From: Glandiceps talaboti | Taxonomy: Eukaryota > Hemichordata > Enteropneusta > Spengelidae | NCBI RefSeq assembly: GCF_964340395.1 | Contig: NC_135549.1 | Span: 30,613,332 to 30,677,331, forward strand | DNA length: 64,000 nucleotides | Direction: 5' to 3' | Shown here: positions 6,301 through 58,882 of the stretch, in pieces | Layout of the letters: each line of letters starts with the position of its first letter | Position numbering within the stretch: position 1 is the stretch's first letter | Notes under the pieces: generated by a model | The model's input: only the letters and a program-made list of their open reading frames with translations | Database searches by the model: none | Told to the model about the DNA's origin: nothing | Program-made: the position numbers and the translations under genes

Positions 6301-9300
6301 TCATAGTATTGTGCCTACCATGCATTTCCAACCAAGTCTTCCAAGATTACCAATTCCTAAACTAGAAGACACACATAATAGGTACTTGCAGTCACAGAGA
6401 GTGCTACTGGATGATGAACAGTTTGCTAAAACAAGCAAACTAATGGAGGAATTTATCAAAGGTGAAGGAAAAGGTAAGTAAAGGGATCTTGTATTGTCAC
6501 AGCAAGTTTCTAAGTACGAAAGAAATACCTTCTAAGTTCTTTTCTTCTGTACATAGGGAAATCTGTCTTGAAAACTCATAATTTTAGTTTCACCATGTTC
6601 CCTAGTAATACTAAGGAAACTATAATTGTACACATCCAAAATGAATCCATATTTTGACATTACTCAGTTCTCAGCATTGATTTAAAAACAGAAATATTGT
6701 GTTTGAATACTTTTACAATGTTTTCTTTTTCCGAGTCTGTAATTTATTTAACACAGTTTTTAGTTCAGGGAAATTTCCTATGGCTTGGACAGAGGGCATT
6801 ATTTTCCTTAAGTCATTGAAGTTATCTTTTGTTCCAGATGTCCAACGATATAGTGTACATTCACATTATTTTGTACAAAAATGATTTTATTCACTTTGGA
6901 TCATCTTTCTTAGATTAAATGCACTGAGGTGGAAAAGTAGAACATTACTTTGTTTCTTCTTTCAAGTAACTCCAAAACTAAAATTAACTACATAAAAAAC
7001 TTCAGTTTATTAACTTTCGATTGTTTTTGATGTCTGAAGGACATGCATTTTGTTTTATGTGCAGTCTTTTGTGTGAAATGTTAACCTTGAATCTACTTTC
7101 TTGTTGTTCAAATCCTCTGAGGTGGAAAGCACTCACAACATTCAACCAGTTTCTTCATTCAAGCATTACAGCAAATAAATATCTTGATATAGTTTTCATG
7201 AAGTCCTTGTGTATGAGGGACTTATGAGCACATCTAGAAACTTAAATTTGAAGAAAAAAGTGAAAGTGATAATACTGGTATTCCAAAATTTGAATGAATG
7301 GTAAAGACATGTTTTCACTTCATTTGAACTTTTATGATGTGCAAAAAATGGTTCATAATAGTTACATATAAATGTAAAATATTGTTTTATTATTTTGATG
7401 GGAAAATGATAATATTAAAGTTGATTATTGCTATTTGTGTTATTTTCATTATTTTTAATAGGGTTGAATGATGAACTTATTGCTATTGACAAAAAGAATA
7501 AACATACAAGTTATATCACAGGTAAAGTACACTCACATTTGGTTATATCACAGGTAAAGTACACTCACATTTGGTTATATCACAGGTAAAGTACACTCAC
7601 ATTTGGTTATATCACAGGTAAAGTACACTCACATTTGGTTATATCACAGGTAAAGTACACTCACATTTCTTGTTTAGTACTCAATACATTTTGTAAGTGT
7701 TATATAAAAAAAGTTGCTCAAGAGCCCCCCCCCCCCCCAAAAAAAAAAAATGATCCTGCATAATCTGTTTGACTAGTGATCAGCTGGCACTAATGTGAGA
7801 ACCTGAGATTGAATCATGGGTCTCCAGCAATGAGTGGTACACAAGTGTAATTCAACCTTGTCAAAAGAACCATAGTCAAATCAGAGACTAATGGCATTTT
7901 TAAAGATAACAAGTCTACTCCACTAGTTGTAGACTGTTGACAGTTGTCCCAAGTTTTTTCTGAAGGGTATAGTATTTATGTATGCATGAATAATCAGTGT
8001 TCAACCATAGAATACATTATTTCTACTATTTCCCATGATTCAATAGCCCCTAGCAAAGACAACCAGCCTATAAATGCACAAGATGAAATTGATGTTTCTC
8101 TGAAATCTCAAGTAATTGTAGGTGATGTACAATCATGAAATTATTCTCCAGAACCCATATTTTATGGAAATGCCTCTATTTCCTGGAGTAGCATTCTCCT
8201 TTAAAAATGTCTAATGACTTTTTACATAGATTTGTACAAAATATTTGACACCAGTTGTTATGATACCTATGATGTATAACTATAATTGTTTGTAACTTGA
8301 CAGGACCTTGGTTCGATATGTACCTGGAAGCAAGAGATCCACTTGTTCTCAATTTTAATCCCTATATTTGTTTTAACATGGATAGTAGAGCGGAGTACAA
8401 CAATCAGGTTAGTGTAACTGTTAGTCTCAAATCAGTCTAAATTTCTATTAGGAATGTGTTTTCTGTTAATAGATATACCAAACATTTTTGACAAGGAAAC
8501 TACCCATCTTTTCCAAAATTTACCTTTTACATTTAAATATGTATGGAACATGGCTATTAAAAACTATCATTTCAGATATACATCTTGGCTGTAAATTTGT
8601 TGTACATTCTGTATTATTTAATATAAACTTTGCAGTTGGCATTAAAAAAAGCAGATGTTTAGATGCTTTGGACAAGAGTTATGTTATGTTATGTTATGTT
8701 TATTTATTAAAGTGTCATGTGTGGACTTACCCATAGCCACACCCAGCCCCTGGAGTCTTGAATATTACAGTTAGGTTGAATACCTAAAACACTGTTTTGT
8801 GAGTAGGTACCATCGAGAGATTTAGTCTGTAAGGTATGCCATGATGGAGTGCCCTCACTCATCGGTTAATTCTTTTCGGATAGAGCAGGCTGGTGGTGAG
8901 GGTGGAGTCATACAATGTATCTTCCAGTCTAGGACAGATTGAGGAGTCCTGAAAAAATGTCATGGTTTTATGTCAAGATCTAAATTTTGCAAACAAAGAA
9001 ATATAATTCAGACCTGTGTACCCTGTTTGATTATTGATCAAGTACCAATTTTGTCGTAATCTCTATTTAACAGATCTTCAAAACCTTTGAATTGAATTGT
9101 CAGCAAAATAAGCAAATTTAACTACACCAAATTTGGGGGAAAAGTCAACTCTCCAGTTTTTAGTTTTCAGAACAAAAGTCAATGTGTGACACTTGACAAA
9201 AACTACTGTTCTGAAAAGATAGTGAATCAAAAATATGAGCACATGAGGTCATTCATAACTTAAGAGTCATACCTGCTTGTAATTTACATAAAATTGTAAA

Positions 9301-48000: not shown

Positions 48001-51000
48001 ACTGTATGACAACAATGAATATTGTCCTTGATGCAATACTGGTATCTTCTCACAATATTTCAACTTTAAACAGTTCCAACTCATTCCTCATATAATTATG
48101 TTATATAAATATGGGACAACTTGGTCATCATTATCACAGCATACATTAATTTACATGTATTCCAGTGTGTAAATTTAGAACTGTGGATACTCTCAGAGGT
48201 TTAATTCAATCCACTAAATAGTCAGTAAATTGGTGACATGAATTATGTCATTGTAACGTATATACTGCATGTACCTACCTTGTGAAATTTGTCTCCTGAC
48301 CATTCTCTGATGTCATAATAATGTGGCTTGACCTGTCTTCATTTGTAACATCACCATCTACAGAAAAATCGTTTCACAAATGAAATATGTCCTCTATGTG
48401 TATGTACTGTTGTACAAAATGTATTCAGGGTTACATAGATTCCTAATATGCAGTTACAGAAGCAATGTTTTCAACAAACTACTGTTACTAGTAATATGTT
48501 TCAAGTCACTGGATTTATTTTAGCTGAATACATACAAAAGCTATTTCCACAGAAAAAAGACCAACTAACTAATGAGTCCACTGGTCATATTTCTATATAC
48601 AGCTGTTGCACAAGGTCATTGTCATAAACTACAGCCTCTTTTACAGCACCATCCACGACACACCATCGTTATTTCAGTGTCACGGAAGAAATAACATCTC
48701 TGGTTTGTGAGAATGTGCAAGGTGTTAACAACAGTTTCACTAGTTAGATCAGGCCGACCAGCTGGTGAGTCATTTACAACACAGGCAAGGAAGAAATGTC
48801 TGTGTTTACAAGCAATGTCTACTCTCTTCCCTTATATATTGTCTGTCAAATTAACATGCACCTGACACACCCTTATCTGCTTTGAAGTATCAATTGCACA
48901 TTGTCCAAAATGATAGGTTGTGTTTCTAACACAGAAGTGGCATCATTGAAGATTTGACATTTTGGTATTATTTGTTATGCTGGGTAATTTTTTGTGCATA
49001 TTAAAAGGTACTTATAGTATTCCACTATTGAAGCAAAATTACTAGTTATCTGCTATTGGTAGAATCAAATCCTGGTATTTGTGCATAATACAGATTTTAA
49101 CAATTTGATAACATAATTTAATAATATACATACAGTTACTAAAATGTAGAGGAAACCCATACTATGCCATTTACTGTGCTAACAGTACTAAACTGTAGAC
49201 GATGTTTCTAATGCCATGGCAGATATTCATCAACATAAATATTATACTAGAATAGTTTGATCTCAGTATTTCCACTCAAGTAAAAAGCTGACAAACTCAC
49301 CTTGTGCCCCTTTAACTCATCTCTCCCAAACTACAGTTAAATATAAATTTGACTTACTTCCATTGATGTGTACACTGTTTTCATCATTCTTTCTACTAGC
49401 ACCTCCAGTATCACTTCTTGGTCCATTCTTATTACTAATTCTCTCTATTTGTACAGGGTTGTTTCTTTTTCTTTGTTCACCAGATCCTATTCTATGTGAT
49501 AAACTATTGTCTTCCTCTGTCTTGCTATGTTTACTGTCATCCCTGTTGGACTTTGTACCATGTCTATTGGCCATTTCTCCTGACCCTATTCGGTGGCTCT
49601 TTTCAGCTGAACTAACTCTGTGACTCTTATCTCCAGAACTAACACGATGAGCTGCATCCCCTGAATTGACTCTCTGAGCCACCTCTCCAGAGTTGATCCT
49701 GTGAGCGGCATCTCCCGAGTTGATTCTGTGAGCAGTATCTCCAGAATTCATCCTGTGAGCTGCATCGCCAGAATTCATTCTGTGAGCACTATCTCCAGAG
49801 TTGACTCTATGAGCTGTGGTGTCTGTGTCATCACTTGGTTCATTTACAGTGTCCCCACCACCCTTCTTTCCCCGGACTCTGATAAATCTCCTTGTGCGTT
49901 CACTTGACTTTTCTCTTGGTGGATGAGGTTTCAAGGCTGTGTTCTCTGAAGAAAATCCCCTAGCAGTCAGTAATTCAGCTAAAAAATAAATCAGTGGGAT
50001 GGTTACAGTCAAATCTTAGAAATACACAATTGACAATCATTCTGACCACTTTAAATATTAAAATGTCAACTCTATATATGATCGTAGTAATTCATCAACT
50101 CTTGCATAAAATCAATCAATCAATCAATCAAACAAACACATGACAAAGAGAAGTCATTTATTTTGGGGAAACGGTTGTAGTAAAACTACATTACCACTTT
50201 TGTCAAATAACCTTGGATTGTCCATAATATCAACAAAAGATAGAGGGTATATTTGTACACTGAGAGGATATATCAAAACTTAGAGCAGTGTGTCTTTTTC
50301 TCAGAATAGTACCAAAGTGGACAAGTTCAGCATCTCATTAACTTTTGATGTCACCTACTTTGAAGCCCAGATCTTTTTGAGGGTACTGGATGTAATTACA
50401 AGTTACAAAAGGTCAAAGGTCAACTTACTCTGCTCTGCAACATCATTGCCACTGTCAACATGACTGTGAAGTGACTTAGACCCTGACAGGGATTGTGAAA
50501 GATCTGTAAAGAACAGAATGATCCAAATGTTATTGGGTTTTTTTCAGTCTATGTTAATTGTTTTCAAATTTACATCAAATCATCTATAACTCTTAGTGTG
50601 TGAATAACCAAATTCTCAACATTATCAGCTGACCCTGTCCCTCTATTGACATTTGACAGGTGACAGCTGACAGGTGAATGAAAAATGAGAGATTTGGTCC
50701 AAATCTTTAATCATTCTATAAAATACGATGCTCTGAATCCAGAAATAACTATTCATGTCAAATTCACAGCAAATACATATAATTTTCATTTGCCACTTTA
50801 TTTGAATAATATATTGGGGTGGTTTTTTTTTTTCAGGTTTGTATTCAGTGGATGAGCCTTTTCACATACAATATGCATTCAATGGATTAGAGTCCCCTCA
50901 GCATTATGCACACTGTTTTTTAATTTTAACAAAATGAAGGAACTGGAGACTCAGTTCTAAACAGATTATAAACATATCTCATTACCTCATTCATCATCTC

Positions 51001-53821
51001 TCCGTGATCACTTGATTGCATTTCGTCACTCATACTGTACATGTATGCTGTCAATTACTTGAGGGATTGGATTAAGCTATCACCTATCTCATTCACATTT
51101 CTACACAAACAGTAGACATGTTCTTTTGATAATTTACCAAGGTGTCTTTTGACTGAATTGAGTACAGTTCTTACCTTCTACTCCCTGTATTCTGGAATGA
51201 GTAGATCTACTGGTCCTACTACCAGACTGTAAACAAACAATAAGACAAAGTGTTTACAGTCACAGCCTGAACACAATGTGACAATGATGATATTCATAGA
51301 GTCAGACACTATATAAATACAACTAAAACATTGATAGATTTGGTTAATTTATCAACAATTGTTGTGACAATGTGCAGAGGTTAATAAATTGAGATTTACA
51401 TGTTTGAATCATCAACAAATAGTACTTGTCTCGGTTACAGTTAGCTTGGTGGCCAACCTTTCCTGAAATGGATATGGTTCCAGGCTAATTTACACTACAG
51501 TAATTCTGTGGTTTTTTAAGGGTGGTAAGTAGGTAAAACCTACCAGGGTTCCCATATCATTTTACCAAGGTTCCCCACCAATATTTTAATAAATTCTATG
51601 GGAAACACTGCCAGTTTTACCTCTTTCCCCTTTCTGTTACCGGGGTTCCAACCTTGGTAAAAACACTGAGTATGAGCTGTTCAAAACAACTATTGTAAAG
51701 AATCTTTGAAACCTACATTAATGAATTATAAGGCTATCTATGGATACCTTTACTCAGACTCTGCCCTCATTACACACACATACAGTAGACATTCTTAAAT
51801 AATTTGCCATCAACTTCTACTTGTTCTAGACATTTGGCTGCTGTCAGAGAATGGTGAATAGTAAATTTTCTAAAAGACAATGCTAGACTTTGACATCTCT
51901 TACCTCTGCACTGCTACTACTGGACGGTTTCTTTGAATATGATATACTAGGAACTGGTACTTTTGAACCAAATGCTATGTGCATTGGTACATCAGCATTT
52001 TTGGCTTTTTGACTTGCACCTAAGTCTGTGGAGATAAATACACTGTGAACACCTAGGACTTCAAAGATAGTCAAATCAAACGTACCTAAGTCTGTAAAGA
52101 TAATCACATTAACTACACCTAGGTCTGTAAAGATAATCATATTAACTACACCTAGGTCTGTGAAGATAATCACATTAACTACACCTAAGTCTGTAAAGAT
52201 AATCACATTAACTACACCTAGGTCTGTGAAGATAATCACATTAACTACACCTAGGTCTGTGAAGATAATCACATTAACTACACCTAAGTCTGTAAAGATA
52301 ATCACATTAACTACACCTAGGTCTGTGAAGATAATCACATTAACTACACCTAAGTCTGTAAAGATAATCACATTAAATACACCTAGGTTTGTGAAGATAA
52401 TCACATTAACTATACCTAAGTCTGTAAAGATAATCATATTAAATACACCTAGGTCTGTGAAGATAATCAAAGTAGCTACACCTAGGTCTGTAAAGATAAT
52501 CACATTAACTACACCTAGGTCAGTAAAGATAACCAAATTAACTATACCTAGGTCTGTGAAGATAATCAAAGTAGCTACACCTAGGTCTGTGAAGATAATC
52601 ATATTAACTAAACCTAGGTCTGTGAAGATAATTACAGTAACTACACCTAGGTCTGTGAAGATAATTACAGTAACTACACCTAAGTCTGTAAAGATAATCA
52701 CATTAACTCCACCTTGGTCAGTAAAGATAATTACAGTAACTACACCTAAGTCTGTGAAGATAATTACAGTAACTACACCTAAGTCTGTAAAGATAATTAC
52801 AGTAACTACACCTAGGTCTGTGAAGATAATCAAAGTAGCTACACCTAGGTCTGTGAAGATAATCAAAGTAACTACACCTAAGTCTGTGAAGATAATCACA
52901 GTAACTATACACCTAAGTCTGTGAAGATAATCACATTAACTACACCTAGGTCTGTAAAGATAATTACAGTAACTACACCTAAGTCTGTAAAGATAATTAC
53001 AGTAACTACACCTAAGTCTGTGAAGATAATCAAAGTAACTACACCTAAGTCTGTGAAGATAATCACAGTAACTATACACCTAGGTCTGTGAAGATAATCA
53101 CATTAACTACACCTAGGTCTGTAAAGATAATTACAGTAACTACACCTAAGTCTGTAAAGATAATTACAGTAGCTACACCTAGGTCTGTAAAGATCGCTGC
53201 ATTAAATACAACTAAGTCATTTTCCTTAAATTTGAATAATGATTATCTTTATAACATACCAGGATCTGTTGTTGATATTGGTCTCATTCCAAACACTTCT
53301 CCTTTGAGCTTCATATCTGCTTGTTTTATTTTATGCATAGTTAATACCTGCAACATATAATGATAAAGTAGTTGGCATGATTTCAAATTGTGTTTACAAA
53401 TTATTCTTTCCATTAGAGTTATGTGTACATGGATTAAAATACATACTTAATAGTTGGCACCTTCATCATTTCAACCCTTGGAATGTCCTATAAATATACT
53501 TTATTTACATTGCATTGTAAACCCATGGGCCCAGTAACTGACATGTTCTAGGTATACCAACCTGTGTTAGGTGTTGTACATCAGGTCCAAACTGACATGT
53601 TCTGGGTATACTATCAATGTCTGTGGTATTAGTTGTAGTCTGGCAGTCATATTGCTCTGAAATAACAAGGTTACATGACATGAAACTCACATCATTACAA
53701 ATAATGGAACACAGTGTACATGATACATGTCCGTCCTGCATGTCATTTAATTTAGATTGACCTACTACATGTATAACTGTGTTGGGTTTTTTTTGGTTTT
53801 TTTTGTTGTTGTTGTTTTTTG

Positions 53822-57300: not shown

Positions 57301-58882
57301 TATAGCATATAGCACAGTGGTTAATATTCATAGTTTTTGTGAATTACACTGTATCTTAAACATGTTCTGCAGAAGAAGACCGTACATTAAATCTGGCAAA
57401 CTAGATGTGAGGTTTTTTTTGGTAAATCTCACTCTAGTCCTGGTAACTTTAAAAGTTACAGTAAGACAGAATCACCATTCACTATAATGATTGTTTGCAT
57501 TTCTTACCATTTAAAACATCACATCTCTAGTTTCTCACAGCTGCTTGCAACCACTTTAAATCATGCATTTATGTTGAACCAATAGACACTGAGCTTTGAA
57601 TTCCTACCTTTTTGACTGCTGAGGCACTGCCAACAACCTTCCACTTCGATATGGTGTCCTTGCCTTGAGCACTAAACACTTCAAAATATGGCCCACCCTG
57701 GATAGAGTAACAAAATACTGGTTTCAACTTATGTACTTCTCAAAATCTACAACTTGTACAAGTTAGTATTTAGCAAAATCAAAATGCTATACAGTTATTG
57801 CAGTGACGGATCATGTCATCCCAATTTCAACTCGTCCCAGTCAACTCGCACTGTCAGTGTCAACCTGCCCCATTTTCAGTGCAGCAGATTTCTGGACTGC
57901 TGTTTGTGTTTTATTTTTCAGTGCAGCAGATTTCTGGACTGCTGTTTGTGGTTTAGTTTTCAGTGCAGCAGATTTCTGGACTGCTGTTTGTATTTTATTT
58001 TTCAGTGCAGCAGATTTCTGGACTGCTTGTTTGTGTTTTATTTTTCATTATATGTTAACATCAAAAATCTGGTTTCTACCAAAATGATGGAGGAGTAAAC
58101 CAAAACAATGGAGGGATAAACTAAAACGATGGAGGGATAAACCAAAACGATGGAGGGATAAACCAAATTGAAAGTCAATATAGTGGATGAATGATGTTTT
58201 TTTTTTACGTCTATCATAAGTTAACGTCTTTAACCACAGACAAAAAAAAACTAAAATCAGGATCGCAATTGTGACCACATCATCTTCACTGGCTTCCAGG
58301 AATTGCGACATTAGTAATCGTACCAAACTTTGTACTTTATCACTTCAATCTTCTGAGGCGGAGAAGACACAATAGTAAGCTTTTTTTATCAGATGGAAGT
58401 CGAGATGAACGATGGGCACAAATTAGTCCTGCTTGCATACGGAGGAATTCGGGACTCGATTCTGACAATTGTCCCTCCCCCTCCTCGGTGTTTAGAGTCA
58501 AGTCAGTAATACAGACTCGTGCACCGTCATGTAAGCAGGACAAGGCACAAATATGCCTTACCTCGTTAACATGTAGGGCTTCTATCTAACATTTAACAAT
58601 TGATCTCTCCCTGCCTCTTTCGTTTGGTGGTAGAGGAATAGGCTTCATCTATTTTCCCACTAAGGACACCATAATTGTTGTTTTTCCTCTAAAGTTATAT
58701 GAAGTTGCAAACCTAGCATGGAACTGCGAACATTGAACAAGAACTGTTGACGAACAAGCTCAAACATGTACGACTTGCACGGTTTTTCTATACGACGCGT
58801 TTCAAGAAAATAATGATTTGTATGAAAAACTGTAAGATCTAACAGAAAATAAAACAATTACCTGGTAGTCGTTCTGAAACAT
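41922..58882 (-). CDS. CFAP20DC: CFAP20 domain-containing protein (complete, 19 exons)
   Basis: Nineteen minus-strand exons join with consistent phases to 891 codons plus stop. Human C3orf67/CFAP20DC is shorter. Residues 1 to about 190 form a CFAP20-like (DUF667) domain, starting [20 protein letters not shown] and including [56 protein letters not shown] and [20 protein letters not shown]20 itself stabilises axonemal doublet microtubules; the role of this relative is poorly known, so a ciliary function is inference. The remainder is disordered and Ser-rich, with conserved islands [14 protein letters not shown] and the C-terminal [20 protein letters not shown]. Exon 12 holds nine 9-residue repeats. 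The gene is divergent from TMA7. Confidence 0.95.
42300..42562 (-). mobile_element. tRNA-derived SINE (decayed)
   Basis: The minus-strand head GGTGTCGGTGGCTGAGTGG resembles a class II (Ser/Leu) tRNA start, with box A-like TGGCTGAGTGGTG (42538-42550) and a degenerate box B GGGGTTAAAACC (42498-42509). A conserved-looking body GGGGTACTCTGGTTTCCTCC and an AATAAAGATTATC-like tail follow. It is not a functional tRNA. Confidence 0.6.
42786..43160. mobile_element. Foldback element, ACAACTGCTGACATC family, full copy
   Basis: Arms of about 140 bp with interruptions. The left starts AAAACTGCTGACATCAAAC and the right ends GTCTGATGCCAGCAGTTGTA, with TTACATTTCAT / ATGAAATGTAA words toward the centre. It lies in CFAP20DC intron 18 (42062-43308). 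Confidence 0.85.
43309..43400 (-). CDS. CFAP20DC: CFAP20DC exon 18
   Basis: Codons 815-845 plus one base, [29 protein letters not shown]. Acceptor TGTATAG, donor GTAAGT. Confidence 0.9.
43401..44482. other. CFAP20DC intron 17
   Basis: 1.1 kb; nothing recognisable. Confidence 0.75.
44483..44571 (-). CDS. CFAP20DC: CFAP20DC exon 17
   Basis: Codons 786-814 plus two bases, [20 protein letters not shown]. Acceptor TTTCAG, donor GTAAGT. Confidence 0.9.
44572..45026. repeat. CFAP20DC intron 16 with (CAGA)n tracts
   Basis: Several CAGA/GACA microsatellite patches between 44817 and 45000; no other element. Confidence 0.9.
45027..45254 (-). CDS. CFAP20DC: CFAP20DC exon 16
   Basis: Codons 710-785, [57 protein letters not shown]. 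Acceptor CTTACAG, donor GTAAGT, phase 0. A piece is duplicated at 41535-41593. Confidence 0.93.
45690..46252. repeat. (GAAT)n/(GGAT)n satellite, about 560 bp
   Basis: Tetranucleotide array of GAAT with interspersed GGAT, GATT and GACC variants in higher-order blocks, in CFAP20DC intron 15 (45255-46318). Ile/His/Ser-rich minus-strand frames of 96-192 codons are artefacts of the repeat. Confidence 0.97.
46319..46672 (-). CDS. CFAP20DC: CFAP20DC exon 15
   Basis: Codons 592-709, [18 protein letters not shown] (a likely short helix), an acidic EEEEE run, then [19 protein letters not shown] and [15 protein letters not shown]. Donor GTAAGT, phase 0. Confidence 0.9.
46673..47397. other. CFAP20DC intron 14
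   Basis: Contains one arm of a foldback family at 47074-47227; the rest shows nothing. Confidence 0.75.
47074..47227. mobile_element. Half copy of the ACAACTGCTGACATCAGAC foldback family
   Basis: Matches the right arms at 42786-43160 and 61971-62232: TTATCAAATGATGAAATGTA, GTTTACTTTCCCTGTTT, CCATGGTCTGATGTCAGCAG. The left arm is missing. Confidence 0.8.
47398..47488 (-). CDS. CFAP20DC: CFAP20DC exon 14
   Basis: Codons 561-591, [30 protein letters not shown]. Acceptor TTTCAG, donor GTAAGT, phase 0. Confidence 0.88.
47489..48278. other. CFAP20DC intron 13
   Basis: 790 bp. A 95-codon plus-strand frame near 47595 shows no known domain and is not called. Confidence 0.75.
48279..48357 (-). CDS. 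CFAP20DC: CFAP20DC exon 13
   Basis: Codons 535-560 plus two bases, [20 protein letters not shown]. Acceptor TCTGTAG, donor GTAGGT. Confidence 0.85.
48358..49357. other. CFAP20DC intron 12
   Basis: 1 kb; nothing recognisable. Confidence 0.75.
49358..49978 (-). CDS. CFAP20DC: CFAP20DC exon 12, with coding minisatellite
   Basis: Codons 328-534, the largest exon. A basic patch ([15 protein letters not shown]) is followed by nine 9-residue repeats of the form AHR(V/M/I)NSGDA, then Ser/Arg/Lys/Asn-rich disordered sequence. Acceptor TTTTTTAG, donor GTAAGT. Confidence 0.9.
49572..49814 (-). repeat. In-frame 27 bp x 9 coding minisatellite
   Basis: Residues about 383-463: nine units [18 protein letters not shown] and variants, drifting to SHRVSSAEK and SHRIGSGEM at the C-terminal side. 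Substitutions between units mostly preserve AHR and SG. Confidence 0.95.
49979..50428. other. CFAP20DC intron 11
   Basis: 450 bp with a short (AATC)n tract near 50112; otherwise nothing. Confidence 0.8.
50429..50503 (-). CDS. CFAP20DC: CFAP20DC exon 11
   Basis: Codons 303-327 plus one base, [20 protein letters not shown]. Acceptor TTTACAG, donor GTAAGT. Confidence 0.82.
50504..51174. other. CFAP20DC intron 10
   Basis: 671 bp; nothing recognisable. Confidence 0.8.
51175..51226 (-). CDS. CFAP20DC: CFAP20DC exon 10
   Basis: Codons 286-302 plus one base, [17 protein letters not shown]. Acceptor TTTACAG, donor GTAAGA. Supported by frame and splice signals; little conservation. Confidence 0.8.
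51227..51903. other. CFAP20DC intron 9
   Basis: 677 bp; nothing recognisable. Confidence 0.8.
51904..52025 (-). CDS. CFAP20DC: CFAP20DC exon 9
   Basis: Codons 245-285, [20 protein letters not shown], then [13 protein letters not shown] and a Ser run. HIAFGSKV is conserved with human. Acceptor CTCCACAG is the nearest of many similar sites; donor GTAAGA, phase 0. Confidence 0.92.
52026..53217 (-). repeat. Splice-acceptor minisatellite, 33 bp x about 36, filling intron 8
   Basis: On the minus strand each unit reads approximately ACTTAGGTGTAGTTAATG, then TGATTATCTTTACAG. The TTACAG (or TTCACAG) end plus the next ACTTAGGTG copies the true exon 9 boundary TTATCTCCACAG|ACTTAGGTG. Units also carry a TTAAT branch-point-like word. 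The array is open in the exon 9 frame for about 26 units (to 52899) as [11 protein letters not shown] repeats. It is interrupted farther out by two-base insertions near 52908 and 53075. Units next to the exon are the most diverged. Confidence 0.97.
53260..53347 (-). CDS. CFAP20DC: CFAP20DC exon 8
   Basis: Codons 216-244 plus one base, [20 protein letters not shown]. Acceptor GTTGCAG, donor GTATGT. Confidence 0.9.
53562..53656 (-). CDS. CFAP20DC: CFAP20DC exon 7
   Basis: Codons 184-215, with [20 protein letters not shown], matching human IIPRSCQLMTDVPQVTQL. Donor GTTGGT, phase 0. Part of the exon is copied just past the donor. Confidence 0.93.
53657..54635. other. CFAP20DC intron 6
   Basis: Contains a T-rich (GTTTT)n and poly-G tract at about 53786-53881 and the composite repeat at 53941-54434. 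Confidence 0.8.
53941..54434. mobile_element. Composite repeat: three ~150 bp subunits, (GACA)n, MITE-type end
   Basis: Subunits starting near 53941, 54093 and 54239 share words such as CAATT(T/C)(T/C), CCAAACA..TTTCAG and TTTTGGA-TTTAAG. They are followed by about ten GACA repeats (54326-54375). The block ends GCACTACTGAACC-ATCAGTTTAGTTGTGCTAA, the reversed end of the 35021 MITE. Superfamily unknown. Confidence 0.65.
54636..54792 (-). CDS. CFAP20DC: CFAP20DC exon 6
   Basis: Codons 132-183 plus one base, [18 protein letters not shown], then [20 protein letters not shown]. This closes the CFAP20-like domain. Donor GTGAGT. Confidence 0.95.
54793..55586. other. CFAP20DC intron 5
   Basis: A short (TG)n tract near 54840-54890; otherwise nothing recognisable. 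Confidence 0.75.
55587..55701 (-). CDS. CFAP20DC: CFAP20DC exon 5
   Basis: Codons 93-131, [20 protein letters not shown] and [16 protein letters not shown]. Acceptor ATTGCAG, donor GTAAGT, phase 0. Confidence 0.96.
56091..56548. mobile_element. Foldback element in CFAP20DC intron 4
   Basis: Ends GGAATGCCACTCCAGGAAA and TTTCCAGGAGTGGCGTTC are inverted. The arms extend about 200 bp with interruptions (GAGACATTT, GGGCTATTGCACCATGG / CCATGATGCAATAGCCC, GAATACATTATTT). A half copy is at 7965-8205. Confidence 0.8.
56568..56640 (-). CDS. CFAP20DC: CFAP20DC exon 4
   Basis: Codons 69-92, [20 protein letters not shown]. Acceptor TTTCAG, donor GTAAGT. A foldback element ends about 20 bp past the donor. 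Confidence 0.95.
57006..57099 (-). CDS. CFAP20DC: CFAP20DC exon 3
   Basis: Codons 38-68 plus one base, [20 protein letters not shown] and RIQMPKDNK. Donor GTAAGT. Confidence 0.95.
57608..57697 (-). CDS. CFAP20DC: CFAP20DC exon 2
   Basis: Codons 8-37, [20 protein letters not shown]. Acceptor TATCCAG, donor GTAGGA, phase 0. Confidence 0.95.
57804..57872. mobile_element. Fragment of the 670-1344 element end
   Basis: TGACGGATCA, TTTCAACTCGTCCCA and CAACCTGCCCCATTTTCA match the terminal subrepeats of the element near the left edge. Confidence 0.65.
57873..58045. repeat. 42 bp x 4 tandem repeat
   Basis: Units TTTTCAGTGCAGCAG, ATTTCTGGACTGCTG, TTTGTGTTTTAT start at 57873, 57915, 57957 and 57999. 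Confidence 0.95.
58079..58168. repeat. 20 bp x 4-5 tandem repeat
   Basis: Units close to AAAACGATGGAGGGATAAACC, in CFAP20DC intron 1. Confidence 0.9.
58424..58543. mobile_element. Small MITE, copy 3, with perfect 9 bp target duplication
   Basis: Flanked by GGCACAAAT on both sides (58415-58423 and 58544-58552). Ends TAGTCCTGCTTGCATACGG and CCGTCATGTAAGCAGGACAA. The interior matches copy 1 in reverse orientation (CTGACAATTGTCC, CCTCGG, GTGCACCG words). Confidence 0.85.
58862..58882 (-). CDS. CFAP20DC: CFAP20DC exon 1
   Basis: Codons 1-7, MFQNDYQ, matching the human start MFKNEYQ. Donor GTAATT, phase 0. Confidence 0.93.

Follow-up and report, generated by a model that had tools for sequence, protein, structure and literature searches.

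An array of 36 tandem units fills nearly all of intron 8 in what is presumably the CFAP20DC gene of Glandiceps talaboti, and one splice border, kept in register, is shared by the repeat unit, the intron and exon 9. The array lies on the minus strand at 52026..53217 of the 64,000-nucleotide stretch of DNA that was analyzed (the window), whose numbering is used here. It is probably a minisatellite that expanded from the 3' splice site when the intron was still short, with the terminal acceptor dominant and the upstream copies used at a low level. The splice-acceptor array itself, already noticed in a first-pass annotation of this DNA, was confirmed; the interpretation attached to it, possible isoforms through alternative acceptor use, is partly supported by the sequence.

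The CFAP20DC-type gene and its intron 8

All exon borders were read from the sequence. Exons from 57697 to 51904 (minus strand), once joined, encode a CFA20 domain (PF05018, E 1.5e-37, 129.6 bits against a cut-off of 24), which confirms a CFA20-domain gene at this locus. We tentatively take the gene to be CFAP20DC, rather than CFAP20 or another CFA20 protein, on the basis of this domain and a similarity to the human CFAP20DC protein. A PDB search with the 103 residues of exons 7-9 returned two matches (E 0.42 and 0.49), both to unrelated chlorophyll proteins. Exon 8 (53260..53347, minus strand) ends with ATCCTG in phase 1 and is followed by the 1234-nt intron 8 (52026..53259, minus strand), which opens with the donor GTATGT at 53259. 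Exon 9 (51904..52025, minus strand) starts with ACTTAGGTG and ends at the donor GCAGAG|GTAAGA. The terminal and presumed canonical acceptor of the intron, TATTTATCTCCACAG|ACTTAGG (52026..52050, minus strand), scores 8.14 with vertebrate-type matrices, and the border falls at 52026|52025, exactly where the first-pass annotation had it.

Two other repeats were seen in or beside this gene. A 27-bp tandem repeat (6.2 copies, 49648-49814, minus strand) within an apparent coding exon encodes 9-residue repeats. Just upstream of the first exon read, a 42-bp unit is present in 4.1 copies (57873-58047, plus strand) and contains an acceptor-like TTTTATTTTTCAG, antisense to the gene.

Architecture of the array

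A register split yielded 36 units between 53218 and 52027 on the minus strand (two measure 35 bp and the other 34 measure 33 bp), and TRF independently reported 52084-53194 with a period of 33, 33.5 copies and 90% matches; coordinates, unit length and frame were as previously described. The consensus unit is GACCTAGGTGTAGTTAATGTGATTATCTTCACA, to which the units have a mean identity of 0.93; both were derived from 31 of the 36 units after units 1, 35 and 36 and both 35-bp units were dropped. When the core ACAGACCTAGGT was searched for with at most two mismatches on both strands of the 64-kb window, 40 matches were obtained against 4.06 expected, with 38 located in the array or the start of exon 9 (35 minus, 3 plus) and two elsewhere in the window. 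The array accounts for 1192 of the 1234 nt of intron 8 (96.6%), leaving 42 array-free nt at the 5' end, and the ancestral intron would therefore have been shorter than about 110 nt.

Read as RNA, most units pass from TTAAT or TTACT through a short pyrimidine run to CACAG or TACAG and then ACYTAGGTG, which is the start of exon 9. Each such unit resembles a miniature acceptor (i.e., a pyrimidine stretch, TTATCTTY, followed by CACAG/TACAG and the beginning of exon 9), in agreement with the earlier statement that the units copy the 3' splice site together with the first exon 9 bases in the exon 9 register. Two details of that description needed amending. The branch-point-like TTAAT attributed to every unit was recognized by eye in 17 of the 33 33-bp units among units 2-36, whereas 14 others carry TTACT or CTACT. 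Similarly, the count of about 36 acceptor copies stands for the units, but four of the 36 (1, 16, 22 and 26) have no AG and copy 36 is weak. With head-to-tail units inside the 10-100 bp range, the array is a tandem minisatellite, and it shares with splice-site minisatellites a unit that carries, in register, the splice site of its neighboring exon, here an acceptor whose border was read from the sequence. Both 35-bp units, unit 5 (53052..53086, minus strand) and unit 10 (52885..52919, minus strand), carry an identical TA insertion that creates an in-frame TAG, for acceptors 2-5 and 6-10, respectively. RNA folding of the 300-nt array stretch leading up to the acceptor gave a z of -1.61, with 13 of 200 shuffles as good.

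Acceptor strength of the repeat copies

Splice sites were scored using vertebrate-type matrices, with which the 13 acceptors of the gene range from 4.96 to 10.05 and the terminal acceptor of exon 9 exceeds every array copy. An AG is retained in 32 of the 35 upstream copies (2-36), being missing in 16, 22 and 26, as it also is in copy 1. Scores between 5.65 and 6.75, inside the range of the 13 acceptors of the gene, were obtained for 31 of these 35 copies; ranked against 893 AGs from the gene region outside the array (other real acceptors included), these copies occupy the 95th-97th percentiles. The two exon-proximal units, 35 and 36 (52027..52092, minus strand), have diverged: unit 36 retains a weak acceptor (1.58), and unit 35 holds a strong donor-like TAG|GTACGT (8.0), compared with the weak donor-like AG|GTGTAG of most units (median 3.47). 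A further AG (TTCACAG) lies 17 nt upstream of the terminal acceptor and the branch point is indistinct, so the terminal acceptor may not be the sole site used.

Of the 24 strand-arrays provided by 12 background arrays within 200 kb, three had acceptor-like units compared with 2.44 when units were base-shuffled, and one had donor-like units compared with 1.1. Splice-like units are thus about as common as chance would have them, and splice strength alone is not evidence; since acceptor-like scores are not rare by chance, the case stands on the register and the shared border, not on the score.

Reading frame through the array

In silico joins from exon 8 to the upstream copies gave two outcomes. 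For 23 AG copies (11-36 minus 16, 22 and 26), n x 33 nt are gained and the reading frame continues without a stop into exons 9 and 10, while the nine AG copies 2-10 run into a TAG in 35-bp unit 5 or 10. The earlier count of about 26 units open in the exon 9 frame was reproduced, with acceptors 11-36 reading through. The accompanying claim that any upstream copy would add n x 11 residues holds for the 23 AG copies but fails for copies 2-10, which stop at the TAG. As evidence for such isoforms the open frame counts for little: none of the 99 possible single-base changes to the consensus creates a stop in frame 0, and the opposite (plus) strand is itself open through the array for 291 aa. The open frame is weak evidence of coding. 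Distinct variants divide into 4 synonymous and 11 nonsynonymous against 26:73 possible, about the ratio expected by chance and no sign of purifying selection on the encoded repeat. When weighted by unit number the division becomes 38:36 and leans toward synonymous, although copied variants are then counted many times. A coding repeat was accordingly judged unlikely, as it receives no support from openness or the distinct-variant ratio and a little from the unit-weighted one.

Array history and distribution in the genome

Units 3-6 recur, unit for unit, as units 8-11 with a single difference, at one site between units 5 and 10. This suggests a copied block, and the near-unchanged recurrence makes length variation plausible. 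A scan of the array found no run of at least three units repeated exactly, and mean unit identity is nearly flat with distance (0.889-0.912 at separations 1-15), so recent reshuffling is only suggested. By eye, the end units 1, 35 and 36 appear most diverged. An assembly-wide DNA search (590 Mb) recovered the array itself and at least one stretch, 66% identical, on C4, a count that is a lower bound because the best candidates alone were scored. Tandem core pairs numbered 28 genome-wide, 27 in the intron 8 array and one on C4, and a reversed-pattern control gave none. At the sensitivity of these searches, a large dispersed repeat family was rejected, with one other array found.

The C4 locus (C4:29773183-29773539, minus strand) comprises 13 tandem units spaced 28-30 bp apart, with one spacing of 22, around a core, TTCACAGACCTAGGT, that represents 15 bases common to the intron 8 array and is exact in six of the 13 units. 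This array lies on the sense strand of an intron that separates one sestrin exon from the next (PF04636; E 1.5e-5 for the upstream piece, which is below the Pfam cut-off, and E 3.2e-41 for the downstream piece), and does not touch the sestrin exons read there. Its unit type, TTTTTTCACAG|ACCTAG|GTATGA, combines an acceptor-like site with a donor-like site six bases on; acceptor-like sites are present in 11 of the 13 units (score 6.28-9.86) and AG|GT follows six bases further in nine. The two arrays may have a common origin or may match by coincidence, and the occurrence of the shared core in the sestrin intron away from an exon border would be compatible with a source other than exon 9. The sestrin-intron units themselves could be micro-exons or points of recursive (stepwise) splicing.

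Comparison with known splice-site repeats

The closest precedent comes from intron 18 of human ABCA7, where a VNTR with a 25-bp unit ranges from about 12 to 427 units in people, its length is linked to exon 19 skipping, and one isoform keeps exactly one VNTR unit (PMC5954066). One-unit retention is described there as "not affected by" some factor (PMC5954066). Both are intronic minisatellites that include the splice site of a neighboring exon and so present an array of near-identical sites; the ABCA7 repeat is on the donor side, 25 bp long and frameshifting, whereas the intron 8 array is on the acceptor side, 33 bp long, frame-keeping and known from the sequence of one assembly. In human IFI6 (6-16), two downstream repeat units serve as donors (Turri 1995, as relayed in PMC4526556 and listed among the references of PMC2572611). 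Minisatellite units there act as alternative splice sites to give several mRNA forms, again on the donor side, whereas the intron 8 array lies on the acceptor side and offers candidate sites only.

Intron gain by tandem AGGT duplication (PMC3443670, PMC2891723) likewise copies splice-competent sequence in tandem, and the intron 8 unit holds AG..AGGT; the outcome differs, as a new intron arises inside an exon there, while here an existing intron would have been lengthened from its acceptor. Internal tandem repeats at exon-intron boundaries of human paralogs also alter splicing (PMC2812944). These resemble the present array in their exon-border position, but belong to recently duplicated human genes; half of them lie in coding exons, and the passages on them describe no acceptor array (PMC2812944). 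Among the literature matches listed, no acceptor-side splice-site array was recognized, and nothing among the matches listed for CFAP20DC concerns intron 8. Splice-site minisatellites are known on the donor side, and the acceptor-side form is new among the matches listed.

Probable origin of the array and alternative explanations

In the account we favor, some 33 bp spanning the acceptor of intron 8 were first duplicated, and the duplication would then have been expanded by slippage or unequal exchange. Such expansion could have been tolerated because splicing removes the extra copies along with the intron and because, with a unit length divisible by three, most upstream acceptors chosen by mistake would leave the frame intact. 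As the highest-scoring site, the terminal acceptor at 52025 would be used in most mRNA. Low-level use of copies 11-36 would lengthen the protein in a stepwise series of n x 11 residues, while use of copies 2-10 would yield stop-containing transcripts that are degraded. That upstream copies are used at all is a prediction from their acceptor scores and from the precedent of ABCA7 and IFI6. Alternatively, the copies might derive from the border and yet be inert, with 52025 as sole acceptor. We give this passive state a minor but real chance, since the terminal acceptor is the strongest by the matrices used, the copies have short pyrimidine runs with TTAAT in 17 of 33, and the nine AG copies that lead to stops would be costly if often used; it is harder to reconcile with the 31 of 35 copies that score like real acceptors of the gene on those matrices, or with the use of neighboring repeat units in ABCA7 and IFI6.

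The opposite extreme, in which an upstream copy is the constitutive or major start of exon 9 and the protein contains as many as 26 copies of an 11-residue repeat, is very unlikely. It would agree with a frame open across 26 units and with the synonymous-leaning unit-weighted variation (38:36), but openness is expected without selection (0/99 stops; opposite strand open for 291 aa), the distinct variants (4:11) fit what is possible (26:73), and the human CFAP20DC protein, in which we take these exon sequences to be joined without insertion, counts against it. The sestrin-intron array raises another scenario, namely that a motif common to intron arrays (TTCACAGACCTAGGT) captured the border of exon 9. 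Although that array has the identical 15-base core (exact in 6/13) on its gene's strand at mostly 28-30 bp spacing, the spacers of the two arrays are unlike, the tandem core pair occurs at two loci only in the 590-Mb assembly as searched, and by our estimate a single 15-mer could plausibly match by chance among many minisatellites, making capture improbable. Finally, long arrays are often misassembled, and the copy number rests on one assembly. A misbuilt array or copy number nevertheless strains belief, because the many distinct unit variants in an ordered pattern are not what read collapse or duplication produces.

Intron 8 amounts to a natural experiment on how the spliceosome selects one 3' splice site from about 33 nearly identical sites in cis. 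The unit length would record acceptor choice in 11-residue steps, readable from cDNA length because the array is on the acceptor side and keeps the frame.

A donor-side array in CPT2 and possible seeding at splice borders

The same window contains a second array across a splice junction. The plus strand at 7510-7668 carries a 32-bp sequence in five perfect copies, which begin with the final 12 nt of an exon of CPT2 and continue into the intron, producing five identical donors (TCACAG|GTAAAG, score 8.18) at 7522-7650. The gene was identified by Pfam (E 8.6e-52) and by PDB 2h4t (E 8.6e-89), the latter alignment being gapless over the first-donor join; donors 2-5 would cause a frameshift or stop if used. 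At the sensitivity of the search, the CPT2 donor array is unique. Junction-straddling arrays make up two of the six arrays of 20-70 bp in the 64-kb window, for which rough odds of 0.004-0.10 were calculated post hoc, depending on the assumed numbers of junctions and arrays. Two such arrays in one window are suggestive, as a post hoc observation, and raise the question of whether splice borders seed minisatellites above chance.

A more far-reaching reading would make intron 8 a length-variable, frame-keeping acceptor ladder, with the number of 11-residue repeats in CFAP20DC varying between individuals and tissues, while the nine distal AG copies would meet a stop barrier formed by the 35-bp units. 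Splice borders of this genome would then repeatedly seed minisatellites (the CFAP20DC acceptor, the CPT2 donor, and the sestrin acceptor-plus-donor), and array length would act as a heritable splicing dial. We regard this wider proposal as speculative and rather unlikely as a whole.

Elsewhere in the window, TGTC runs recur six times between 20600 and 29397, in every case with an 18-bp TCTGCCTTTCTCTGACTG-like repeat behind them. These sets form two clusters and are spaced about 1.3-1.4 kb apart, a pattern that would fit the tandem repetition of a larger unit.
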